DNA of 64,000 bases, from contig NZ_JAJEJV010000004.1 of NCBI RefSeq assembly GCF_021390675.1, positions 868,001-932,000 of the forward strand, given 5' to 3'. The position numbers and the translations under genes were made by a program. The stretch is from Dyella sp. 2HG41-7. GTDB lineage: Bacteria > Pseudomonadota > Gammaproteobacteria > Xanthomonadales > Rhodanobacteraceae. The notes below the pieces were generated by a model. It was not told the DNA's origin and ran no database searches. It saw only the letters and a program-made list of their open reading frames with translations. Shown here piece by piece: positions 20,323 to 24,056 of this stretch (positions are counted from its first letter, which is position 1; each line of letters begins with the position of its first letter).

Positions 20323-21288
20323 CTATGCGGAGACCAACGATGGGCGCCCATCCCGCGAAACATCCCTGCGAATGCGATGCTCAGAGCCCAAATGGGAGGC
20401 GCTGGCGCGAACACGGCCAGGGCACATGCCGCTGACGCGTTTGAACAGTCGCCTGAATGCCGCTTCGCTGCTGTAACCCAGCCGCTCGGCGATCGACGCC
20501 ACCGACAATTGCCGATCCTGCAACAACCGTTCGGCGATGTTGACGCGCCACTGGGTGACGTACTGCATCGGCGGTACCTTCATCAGCTGCGCGAAACGTT
20601 CGGCGAATGCCGAACGCGACATGCATGCCAGCGAGGCCATGGATTGCATCGTCCATGGATGCCCCGGATTGTCGTGCACCGCTTGCAATACCTTGCAGAT
20701 TCGCGCATCCGCGAGGGCGGAAAACAGGCCGCGGCGATCCGTTTGACGATGCGCGTAGTCGCAGATGGCAAGGGTAAAGAGGGTGTCGGCAAGTTTGTTC
20801 AGCAGCACCCGACGGCCAGGCAACCGCGCGCGAATCAGCTCGATCATCATGCTCGACAGATTGCGAAACAGCGGATCGGCCTGCGCCGCGCGTACGACAA
20901 AACAAGCCGGCAAAGCATGTCGAAGTGGATGATGGGCGTGATCGGAGAAATGCAGTTCGCCGCAGATCATGCCGGTAAATAGCGCGTCGCTGTTCGGCGC
21001 GGCGCGCAGGCGATGAGGGTCGCCGTGCGGAAAGACCACCAGATCGCCGGGCTCCAGCTGCCAAGCTTCGTCGAGCATCGCGCCATCGACCTCGCAGTGT
21101 CCGGCCCCGATCAGGTGAAACACGCCGCAATCGAAACGCGGCTCATCCAGAAACCGGGAATCGCAGCGAAATAGCTCGTCGTCCACCTCAACCCGGAACA
21201 TCGACTGGCTGAGCAGGGATTCCAACGCGGGATCCACACCCGGTGCGAGGGGAACGCCGGCAAGTACGGAGGGGTGCTCGATGTACAT
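20323..21288 (-). CDS. AraC-family regulator with N-terminal cupin domain
   Basis: A protein of 321 residues. An N-terminal cupin (Cupin_6-like: FHLIGAGHCEVDG, LEPGDLVVFPHGDPHRL) is joined to a C-terminal double helix-turn-helix with MSRSAFAERFAQLMKVPPMQYVTQWR and SVASIAERLGYSSEAAFRRLFKRVSG. This layout is found in regulators of nearby oxidoreductases or stress genes. It lies 76 bp after the last gene of the bufferin operon in the same orientation and 188 bp before the GntR gene. It could be a tail gene of the bufferin operon or control the sugar locus. The target is unknown. The last 25 residues are a basic tail beyond the usual end. Confidence 0.85.
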   Translation of the reverse strand: MYIEHPSVLAGVPLAPGVDPALESLLSQSMFRVEVDDELFRCDSRFLDEPRFDCGVFHLIGAGHCEVDGAMLDEAWQLEPGDLVVFPHGDPHRLRAAPNSDALFTGMICGELHFSDHAHHPLRHALPACFVVRAAQADPLFRNLSSMMIELIRARLPGRRVLLNKLADTLFTLAICDYAHRQTDRRGLFSALADARICKVLQAVHDNPGHPWTMQSMASLACMSRSAFAERFAQLMKVPPMQYVTQWRVNIAERLLQDRQLSVASIAERLGYSSEAAFRRLFKRVSGMCPGRVRASASHLGSEHRIRRDVSRDGRPSLVSA

Positions 21289-21364
21289 AGGGCAACACGT
21301 CCTGCGTTGGGAACCATGCCAACTATTCGCAGGAGGTTTCGCCGAAGTTACATCGTGACCGAAA

Positions 21365-22135
21365 TCAGGTCGTCAGCCCCCGGATAAGGCCGGCCGCCAG
21401 CCATGTCCGCAGCAGCGACACCATGCGCGGCGCGGCCTGGGCATCGCCGTGGTGTTCGGCGGACAGGGCGCACAAAGCCGCGAACGGCTCGCCGCGCCGG
21501 GCGGCGCTGAGGACGGGCCATTCGTCGTTTTCCAGTACCCGGTAGTGAACGGTTGTGGCATGGCGCCAGACTGCGATGCGGCGCGGTTTGGCGAGCCGGC
21601 GCACGCCCGGGCGCGCGGTCGCGCGGTCGGCGGCGCGACGAAAGGCGTCCACGTTATGAGTCACCGTCAGCAGATGGAGATTGGCTTGCAAGTCGAGCCG
21701 GAGATTGGCCCACGCCGCCGGCGGCACGGATGCGAGTTCGTCCGTACCGAGGCTTGGTTCGTCGGCAGCGTCGAATGCGATGGAAATGGCCCAATCCAGC
21801 TGCGCCATATCCGCCAACTGCGGTTTGTCGCGATGGGTTTCGCGCAGATACGCAGCCAATTCGGAACCGTGCCAGCGAATGTTGTAGTGCGCGGATGGGT
21901 GCTCGGCGATGTAGTCGTCGAGCAGCGCGTCCAATTGCGATCCGGCCATGCATTGAAGACCGAGAAATTCTTTTTTCAACGCATCGCGCAATCGAATGCG
22001 ATAGCCGTGCTGATAAATCGCCAGTCGGTCGCCGACGTCCGCGACGTTATCGCTACGAATATCCGGCAGCGTTGCCGATCTGGCATCGAGCACGGCGCGC
22101 TGCATCGATTCCTGGATCAATTGCAACGTACTCAT
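21365..22135 (-). CDS. bufC: BufC-like DUF2063 partner protein of the MNIO enzyme
   Basis: A protein of 256 residues. The N-terminal half is a DUF2063 (HvfC/BufC) domain: LQLIQESMQRAVLD, RLAIYQHGYRIRLRDALKKEFLGLQ and AEHPSAHYNIRWHGSELAAYL. The C-terminal half carries the matching WRHATTVHYRVLENDEW. In characterised MNIO systems this partner binds the precursor peptide and delivers it to the oxygenase. The start codon overlaps the stop of the DUF692 gene as ATGA (22132-22135), so the two proteins are made in a coupled way. It is the last gene of the three-gene bufferin operon. No terminator is visible before the AraC gene. Confidence 0.88.
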   Translation of the reverse strand: MSTLQLIQESMQRAVLDARSATLPDIRSDNVADVGDRLAIYQHGYRIRLRDALKKEFLGLQCMAGSQLDALLDDYIAEHPSAHYNIRWHGSELAAYLRETHRDKPQLADMAQLDWAISIAFDAADEPSLGTDELASVPPAAWANLRLDLQANLHLLTVTHNVDAFRRAADRATARPGVRRLAKPRRIAVWRHATTVHYRVLENDEWPVLSAARRGEPFAALCALSAEHHGDAQAAPRMVSLLRTWLAAGLIRGLTT

Positions 22136-22998
22136 GCCGCGTCCCGCAACAGCGGTTCGGCGAGATTGCGCGCGTGGTCGAGTTCCGCGAGCAGCTCCGA
22201 TAGCGGCGGGAAGTTGTCGTCGCGTTCGATCATGGTCGATACGCGACCGAAGCGACGCACGGCCTCGATGTAGAGATCCCACACCGCGTTGGAGACGGGC
22301 GCATCGTGCGTATCGATGATCAACCGCTCGCCTTGTTCGTATCCGGCGAGATGAAATTGCTGTACGCACGATACCGGAATGCCACGTAGATAATCCAGCG
22401 ACGAAAAGCCGTGATTCATCGCGCTGACGTGCACGTTGTTGATGTCGAGCAGAATCAGGCAATCGGCGCGTTCGGCGACTTCGGCGAGAAATTCCCATTC
22501 GGTGAGTTGCGACTGCGCAAAGCTTACGTAGCTGGATACGTTCTCCAGCAGAATGCGGCGTTGAAGCACGTCCTGCACGCGTTTGACGCGGCCGACGACA
22601 TGGTCCAGCGCTTCTTCCGTGTAGGGCAGCGGCATCAAATCATGCAGATTGACGCCCGCTACGCCGGTCCAGCAAAGATGATCCGAGACCCACGCCGGTT
22701 CGACGCGTTTGGCTAGCGCGGCGAGTCGCGTAAGGTAGTCGTTATCGAGCGGGTCGGCGCTGCCGATGGACATCGATACGCCATGCATCACAAGCGGAAA
22801 ACGCTCGCGAAAACGGTCGAGCCACACCAGCGGCAGGCCGCCATCGACCATGTAGTTTTCTGATACCACTTCCAGCCATTGGACTTGCGCCGGTTGGGCG
22901 AGCAGCGCTTCGTAATGCTCTACGCGCAAACCGAGGCCGTAGCCGAGATAAGGAAGTTTGTTGGAGCGTGTGGCGGTCATCGCGAATGTCGCTTGCAT
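22132..22998 (-). CDS. bufB: BufB-like DUF692 multinuclear non-heme iron oxidative enzyme (MNIO)
   Basis: A protein of 288 residues with a TIM-barrel DUF692 fold. The N-terminal LPYLGYGLGLR is typical. The putative iron ligands are all present: H72 (VMHGVS), H107 (SDHLCW), E152 and N153 (LLENVS), D185 and H190 (LDINNVH), H216 (FHLAG), D229/H231 (DTHD) and E259 (IERD). MNIOs oxidise cysteines of precursor peptides into oxazolone/thioamide or thiooxazole groups. The gene follows the Cys-rich bufA and overlaps bufC. Start: I prefer ATG 22998; ATG 22980 is also possible, while ATG 23016 lies in the arm of an 11-bp hairpin and is unlikely. No start has a strong ribosome site, so translation may be kept low relative to bufA. 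Confidence 0.9.
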   Translation of the reverse strand: MQATFAMTATRSNKLPYLGYGLGLRVEHYEALLAQPAQVQWLEVVSENYMVDGGLPLVWLDRFRERFPLVMHGVSMSIGSADPLDNDYLTRLAALAKRVEPAWVSDHLCWTGVAGVNLHDLMPLPYTEEALDHVVGRVKRVQDVLQRRILLENVSSYVSFAQSQLTEWEFLAEVAERADCLILLDINNVHVSAMNHGFSSLDYLRGIPVSCVQQFHLAGYEQGERLIIDTHDAPVSNAVWDLYIEAVRRFGRVSTMIERDDNFPPLSELLAELDHARNLAEPLLRDAA

Positions 22999-23007
22999 GA
23001 ACGTGAC

Positions 23008-23034
23008 GGAGCGCATGCGTCGTGCATGCGCTCC
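23008..23034 (-). other. Perfect intercistronic hairpin between bufA and bufB
   Basis: GGAGCGCATGC (23008-23018) and GCATGCGCTCC (23024-23034) form a perfect 11-bp stem with a 5-nt loop, 11 nt after the bufA stop and 9 nt before the preferred bufB start. There is no T-run, so read-through is expected. It probably protects the bufA 3' end and lowers bufB output, giving more peptide than enzyme. Confidence 0.75.
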
Positions 23035-23045
23035 GCCGAGCGCGA

Positions 23046-23315
23046 TTACTTCTTCGCGGCAGCCTGGGCGGCGTCGCAGTCGGCTTGCGTCTTCTGCATG
23101 GTGAAGCCCTGGCCTTTGCAGGAGTTCTGGCCTTTGCAGGAATTGGAAGCCTGCTTGCAGGCGCCTTGGCCTTTGCAGGACGACGAATTCATGCACTTGA
23201 CCATGGCCTGATCGCCGGCGGGCGAGCCGACGGGCGCGGCGGACACGGCCGCAGCGGCGAACAGACCGGCCACCATCACGGCCATGGCGCTGGCATTGAC
23301 TGTCTTGATGTTCAT
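23046..23315 (-). CDS. bufA: Bufferin-type Cys-rich precursor peptide (BufA family)
   Basis: A peptide of 89 residues. Signal peptide MNIKTVNASAMAVMVAGLFA ending near VSA (about 26), then a mature part of some 63 residues with six Cys. Four of them lie in SCKGQ/ACKQ-type units (SSCKGQGACKQ, NSCKGQNSCKGQGF), with single Cys before and after. Bufferins are secreted peptides whose Cys are modified by the DUF692 enzyme and which bind copper, giving copper tolerance. The neighbouring bufB and bufC genes make the assignment firm at family level. The CKGQ repeats resemble the BufA2 group more than DUF2282 (BufA1). GGAG is 9 nt before the ATG. Which Cys are modified cannot be read from sequence. Confidence 0.87.
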   Translation of the reverse strand: MNIKTVNASAMAVMVAGLFAAAAVSAAPVGSPAGDQAMVKCMNSSSCKGQGACKQASNSCKGQNSCKGQGFTMQKTQADCDAAQAAAKK

Positions 23316-23594
23316 ATCTATGGCTCCAGAAGTTGTGGTCGCCGCAACGCGGCACAGGGGAATGTCTCGTCCGCCGTGCAGGGCTAAGCGTCTGCAGCGA
23401 CGGACAGAGCCATTGTGCTGCCCCGATCCTTCGGTCGCTGCGCCCGCGCATCCTGCATTTATGCCCAATCGTCCGGTACGCTTTGGCTAGGTGTCAGGGC
23501 AGGATTCCCAGCAAGAAAGCCTGGACGTCCGGATATGGTTGGGGTGGGCAAGCCCGCGCATCATGCGCTCAGTTCATTCAAAGGAACATGTGCA

Positions 23595-24056
23595 ATGCGT
23601 CATTTCCTAGCAACCAAGGCCTCTCGCCTGCTTGAGATTCTGTATGCCTGGCGCTGGCTCGGCCCGTTGGTGGTGCGGCTGGCGTTCGGCTATTTCTGGT
23701 TCGAAACCGGCATCGCCAAGGTGCATAACCTGGAGGGTTTCACGCAGCGCTTCGTGGGGTGGCACATTCCGCATCCGGCCTTCAGCGCCGCGTTGTCGGC
23801 GTGGACGGAGTTGCTCGGCGGTTTGTTGCTGATGCTCGGTTTGTTCACGCGACTGGTCACCATCCCCATGATCATCAACATGATCGTGGCGGTAACGCTG
23901 GTGGTGTCGAGCAACATCATGGGCTTGGACGACTTTGTCGAAGCCGACGAAGTGGTCTACTCGTTGATCTTCTTCTGGTTCCTGATGGCGGGCCCCGGCA
24001 AGATTAGCCTCGATACGCTGGTGGCGCGTTGGCTTGGCATCCGCACGCGCGATTGA
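23595..24056 (+). CDS. DoxX-family membrane protein, BufD-like
   Basis: A protein of 153 residues with four predicted membrane helices. The DoxX pattern is visible: RLAFGYFWFETGIAKV, AWTELLGGLLLMLGLFTRLVTIPM and a C-terminal DEVVYSLIFFWFLMAGPGKISLD. Start: ATG 23595 with AAAGGAAC in front; earlier in-frame starts give a poor N-terminus. In many bufferin and HvfABCD loci a DoxX protein is the fourth gene. Here it is divergent from bufABC across 279 bp that must carry both promoters, where I found no clear sigma-factor boxes. A role in electron supply or membrane redox linked to the MNIO is inferred only. Confidence 0.83.
   Translation: MRHFLATKASRLLEILYAWRWLGPLVVRLAFGYFWFETGIAKVHNLEGFTQRFVGWHIPHPAFSAALSAWTELLGGLLLMLGLFTRLVTIPMIINMIVAVTLVVSSNIMGLDDFVEADEVVYSLIFFWFLMAGPGKISLDTLVARWLGIRTRD

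Follow-up and report, generated by a model that had tools for sequence, protein, structure and literature searches.

The bufferins, which bind copper, are a large peptide class, and the literature searched describes no dedicated regulator for the BufA2 branch. Positions 21365-24056 of the window (the 64-kb stretch of DNA that was analysed, positions 868001-932000 of its contig in a genome of 4.26 Mb) hold an intact locus of the bufferin-2 type (BufA2, "captophorin") in a Dyella-like soil bacterium, and among named organisms it is closest to Dyella genomes. The genes bufA2, bufB and bufC follow one another on the minus strand, with the 3' end of bufB overlapping bufC by 4 bp, and doxX is divergent on the plus strand across a gap of 279 bp (23316-23594). 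Another 76 bp (21289-21364) separate bufC from an araC gene. The initial annotation of this DNA had placed a peptide, an MNIO, a DUF2063 partner and a DoxX gene here together with both gaps and had read them as a bufferin locus. All four genes were confirmed where it had put them, and the bufferin reading is supported by BufA2 and BufB, both of which exceed curated NCBIfam cut-offs. The RiPP cluster itself is thus of a known kind, and what goes beyond that annotation is its proposed regulation by the neighbouring AraC.

The bufA2 gene (23046..23315, minus strand) encodes a putative Sec-type precursor peptide of 89 amino acids. A comparison with profile models had been suggested for this product, and it does match a BufA model, scoring 68.4 bits against the curated BufA2 model NF050166 (NCBIfam, cut-off 60). 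No DUF2282 match was found for the peptide in Pfam up to an E-value of 0.1, which rules out a DUF2282/BufA1 identity and agrees with the earlier preference for BufA2 over the DUF2282 type. Six cysteines in CKGQ-type units had also been described: the cysteines lie at positions 41, 47, 53, 60, 66 and 80, three of them in CKGQ and C53 in CKQA. Inspection of the N-terminus by eye showed a basic start, a hydrophobic stretch and a VSA-A site. In an alignment with 13 relatives of 33-87% identity all six cysteines are invariant, as are C47-K-G and C66-K-G. Between congeners, dN of bufA2 was 0.03-0.07 against dS of 0.56-1.21, so the gene is under purifying selection and is not a chance ORF. Other forms of the precursor occur among relatives. 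Several of them have, in addition, one or two BufA2 loci of a CYGVN type, with BufB 53-58% identical (L035-L046), and on some contigs there is an additional BufB that is more distant (42-43%); none of these loci has the AraC gene. In some genera, a tandem two-domain BufA2 (12-Cys type) replaces the single-domain form (L047, L048, G442-G450).

The maturase BufB (22132..22980, minus strand, 282 aa) scored 387 bits against NF050167 (NCBIfam cut-off 310) and 372 bits against the MNIO (DUF692) family PF05114. Its His, Asp and Glu motifs are kept in the alignment to PDB 3bww, which bears out the DUF692 enzyme with putative metal ligands that had been annotated. In the ERDDNFPP motif of BufB, Asp254 occupies the catalytic-base position and Asp255 the position of FonB Phe250, opposite the Phe of 3bww in ERD[DF]NFPP. 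An Asp replacing FonB Phe250 is reported for MNIOs with Cys-Lys precursors (PMC13097082), and by this alignment BufB carries the predicted Cys-Lys specificity residue, matching the motifs of the peptide. Only one MNIO gene, bufB, and one BufA2 are present in the genome, therefore enzyme and substrate pair unambiguously. As to the chemistry, the initial annotation had named both oxazolone/thioamide and thiooxazole groups for known MNIO systems. Of these, 5-thiooxazole is what DUF2063-type MNIO systems are now expected to form, since the oxazolone/thioamide assignment for oxazolin has been revised (PMC13097082). The characterised peptides from such systems are copper binders (PMC12452194, PMC13097082).

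BufC (21365..22135, minus strand, 256 aa), a DUF2063 plus RRE partner of PME type 1, scored 52 bits against PF09836 (DUF2063), over the cut-off, and a phmmer search of PDB sequences with it gave no match. Its predicted structure (pLDDT 92) aligned with NGO1945 (3dee) over 195 residues with a Z-score of 14.9 and with TglI (8hci) with a Z-score of 13.7, and residues 147-254 matched stand-alone RREs, for example TbiB1 with a Z-score of 9.4. On the strength of these fold matches, the modelled BufC is a complete two-domain DUF2063 and RRE partner, in keeping with the DUF2063 protein annotated before. The alternative that BufC is an HvfC was rejected, since its 21.9 bits are far under the cut-off of 142 of the HvfC equivalog NF050145 and the fold comparison groups it with 3dee and TglI.

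The doxX gene (23595..24056, plus strand) encodes an HvfX-like membrane protein of 153 amino acids, which scored 65.1 bits against PF07681 (cut-off 23.6) and did not reach the HvfX equivalog NF050144 (65.4 bits, cut-off 80). A split, divergent BufD-like gene had been proposed at this place. Its divergent position is confirmed and is conserved among relatives, but a split gene is ruled out by the single intact ORF. A longer, GTG-started ORF begins at 23415 and crosses the conserved operators described below, so 23595 is the likely start of doxX. DoxX is an accepted core component of bufferin clusters (PMC12452194).

The araC gene (20323..21288, minus strand) encodes an AraC-family protein with an N-terminal Cupin_6 domain (PF12852, 75 bits) and an HTH_18 domain (PF12833, 72 bits), and the predicted model (pLDDT 81) has cupin-like strands followed by HTH helices. 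An orthologue was found in 52 of 233 Rhodanobacteraceae genomes and adjoins bufA2 in all but one of them; no further one was seen in a sample of 369 genomes of the class. The divergent doxX-bufA2BC-AraC arrangement is present at 21 loci of 6 genera, comprising all 16 genus genomes examined and five other genera, and was also found in Dyella, Rhodanobacter and Frateuria records; D. jiangningensis likewise carries this locus (L085). At most of these loci the unit is flanked by gshA and a sensor kinase gene. It was considered whether AraC is a chance neighbour amid this synteny, which is countered by L033 and L069, where the flanks differ and the five-gene unit is still intact, and by L144, a Hydrocarboniphaga contig with an AraC of 47% identity placed divergently to bufABC-doxX. 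Other Rhodanobacteraceae (L087, L088, L090-L094) have a divergent doxX-bufABC without AraC.

The single exception to the linkage is G033, which kept AraC beside gshA and lost bufA2, bufB and doxX. No operator box was found at its araC/gshA position, so the regulator may have another target. Elsewhere in G033 (L230:4143-4183, minus strand), two box-like sites of 17.3 and 14.6 bits, spaced 22 bp apart, precede an ORF of 835 aa by about 60 bp, and this ORF is a possible alternative target of AraC. AraC paralogues of 46-57% identity were also observed in genomes that have the buf-linked copy as well (L227, L228, L229); neither buf genes nor a box lie close to these paralogues.

Alignment of the doxX-bufA2 intergenic region revealed two strongly conserved blocks that are one element in opposite orientations, CCGGACGATYGGGCATAAA facing bufA2 and CTGGACGNNCGGACATGG facing doxX. 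Each predicted operator is a tandem repeat of a YGGACGNNYGRRCAT-type site with 21-bp spacing. The distal half-site of operator A, CCGGACGATTGGGCATAAA (23458..23476, minus strand), faces bufA2 and is the top matrix match in the 64-kb window with 28.2 bits; the proximal half-site of operator D, CTGGACGTCCGGATATGGT (23521..23539, plus strand), faces doxX and ranks second with 22.4 bits, and the third match scored 11.9. An offset scan around each site, together with the consensus, located a weaker second copy of the half-site at a distance of exactly 21 bp, which lies downstream for A (its proximal half-site, 23437..23455, minus strand) and upstream for D (its distal half-site, 23500..23518, plus strand). 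A putative -10 element of bufA2, CACAAT (23412..23417, minus strand), lies 19 nt past the proximal half-site of operator A and has cA.AAT conserved in 32 aligned loci. The putative -10 element of doxX, CATCAT (23559..23564, plus strand), lies 19 nt past operator D, with CATNATGCG conserved in the genus alignment. A sigma-70 consensus scan of the gap yielded no promoter and no good -35, which fits an activator-dependent promoter without proving one. Tandem half-sites beside a promoter, overlapping the -35 region, are the usual layout for AraC-type activators.

The matrix was trained on the genus only and scored on other, held-out loci. All 36 held-out loci with AraC scored between 15.3 and 27.1, whereas the 13 AraC-less loci of like architecture all scored 8.9 or less. 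L144 carries the 16-mer CCGGACGATCGGGCAT exactly in one clear box that is oriented toward araC; its score of 24.1 is higher than that of any of 5000 Markov shuffles (maximum 15.9). The correlation between AraC and the box is clade-structured, and it offers few independent contrasts (the main clade and L144). Its strength therefore comes from the held-out clades together with the independent arrangement in L144. Among relatives, matches to the A box with 0-1 mismatch were confined to the buf locus, bar one in an unrelated genome. A loose form of the box pattern occurs four times in the genome studied here, twice as the operators and twice within unrelated coding genes; a wider regulon in this genome was rejected, since both extra matches fall inside coding genes. 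The initial annotation had held that the AraC gene could belong to the locus, and its membership in the bufferin unit is now well supported by the linkage to bufA2 and the operator association. From the same arrangement doxX appears to be co-regulated with the bufA2 genes, and no other evidence to date speaks as well as the shared operator pair for a DoxX that acts with the peptide.

Taken as a whole, the locus is probably an operon for a bufferin-2 peptide (Cys-Lys captophorin) that is controlled by an AraC-family regulator of its own, working as follows. In the cytoplasm, BufC would present the precursor peptide to BufB, an iron oxygenase that would turn the cysteines of the C-K-G units into 5-thiooxazoles, very likely C47, C60 and C66 and possibly C53; a disulfide probably joins C41 and C80. 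The product would then be routed by its signal peptide via Sec to the periplasm, where surplus copper would be bound; we infer both the chemistry and the metal from these findings together with published studies of bufferins and captophorins (PMC12452194, PMC13097082). AraC, encoded directly downstream of bufC, would bind both operators of the 279-bp gap, which are inverted relative to each other and each abut a promoter, and thereby switch on bufA2BC and the divergent doxX together, activation rather than repression being suggested by the operator geometry. A more far-reaching version of this proposal is that AraC is a dedicated bufferin-2 sensor-activator and represents a new regulator family for MNIO-made metallophores, which senses copper or the modified peptide via its conserved cysteines and activates bufA2BC and doxX through a mirror-image pair of operators, with DoxX as an obligate functional partner. 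We put this version forward tentatively, as it falls somewhat short of an even chance.

The inducer and the role of the cluster could also lie elsewhere, in oxidants such as reactive chlorine or peroxide, or in a metal other than copper, with protection by thiol or thiooxazole chemistry. The best NCBIfam match of the regulator is RclR (NF040475), a reactive-chlorine regulator, and its cysteines 42, 65, 109 and 176 are conserved. Furthermore, a connection exists in E. coli between HOCl stress and copper stress (PMC7527725), and protection against oxidative or sulphur stress has been suggested for DoxX genes (PMC12452194). However, the regulator scored 130 bits against an RclR cut-off of 400, and copper is what the characterised DUF2063-type MNIO peptides bind. 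We therefore regard an oxidant or another metal as an unlikely inducer. It is more doubtful that the AraC gene is a neighbour through shared history and that another protein binds the conserved boxes. G033 has AraC without bufA2 or boxes, and much of the synteny extends to gshA and the sensor kinase gene, which may be functionally unlinked. Against this, the boxes are found in every AraC locus and in no AraC-less locus of like architecture, an exact box is present in the differently arranged L144, and the tandem half-sites beside a promoter are typical of AraC-family activators. Finally, export of an unmodified BufA2 that holds metal by plain cysteine thiols, with bufBC silent or acting on another substrate, is highly improbable: modification is not readable from sequence and a related cluster in Microbulbifer showed no expression in culture (PMC12538549), but bufB is the only MNIO gene of the genome and shares one operon with the only BufA2, its Cys-Lys specificity residue fits the peptide, and the six cysteines and C-K-G units are conserved.

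The locus was compared with the systems already described. It shares the six-Cys precursor, here putatively Sec-exported, the MNIO, the DUF2063 and RRE partner, DoxX and the bufABC gene order with the Bufferin-2 or Buf_6/12Cys BGCs of Antoine et al. (PMC12452194), and differs from them in the divergent doxX, the linked AraC regulator and the operator pair. AraC is not mentioned in that survey of MNIO clusters, where sigma/anti-sigma genes are reported for Buf1 alone. With the Cys-Lys group of captophorins (Gadgil et al., PMC13097082) it has in common the Cys-Lys motifs, the Asp in place of FonB Phe250 and the catalytic Asp, whereas the product of the present locus is a predicted one; that paper refers to nearby transcriptional regulators in a general way only. 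Bufferin-1 (DUF2282) of Caulobacter follows the same maturation logic, but the precursor here is of another family, with DUF2282 unmatched, and sigma factor/NrsF genes are lacking. Oxazolin/HvfABCX of Haemophilus likewise has an MNIO, a DUF2063 partner and the DoxX-like HvfX, but its precursor is EGKCG-type and the HvfB, HvfC and HvfX equivalog cut-offs are not reached by the locus here. RclR of E. coli resembles the regulator in its AraC/Cupin_6-type architecture and sensor-domain cysteines and is set apart from it by the low score, by other target genes and by rclA, which does not adjoin the gene here. No paper linking bufferins to an AraC regulator was found in the freely accessible literature searched. 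As the regulator gene and the exact operator sequences are conserved across many genomes, the inducing signal and the membership of DoxX are directly testable.

A further conserved feature of the operon is a hairpin (23005..23037, minus strand) directly past the bufA2 stop codon, with a 14-bp stem, a 5-nt loop and a folding energy of -34.3 kcal/mol (z -4.0). A hairpin with a stem of 11-15 bp and a short loop is present at this position in 51 of 52 AraC loci, L210 being the only one without it, and also in most AraC-less loci, with stem sequences that are unrelated between loci. Most of the hairpins lack a U-run, so full termination is less likely than partial termination or protection of the 3' end of the bufA2 mRNA. 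The hairpin probably keeps the precursor mRNA in excess over the enzyme mRNA, and its conservation at this position suggests a way in which RiPP operons set their precursor-to-enzyme ratios. Very large, near-perfect inverted repeats were observed between bufA2 and bufB in L201 (147 nt) and L195 (167 nt), which belong to two congeners of G033; these are perhaps small mobile repeats.
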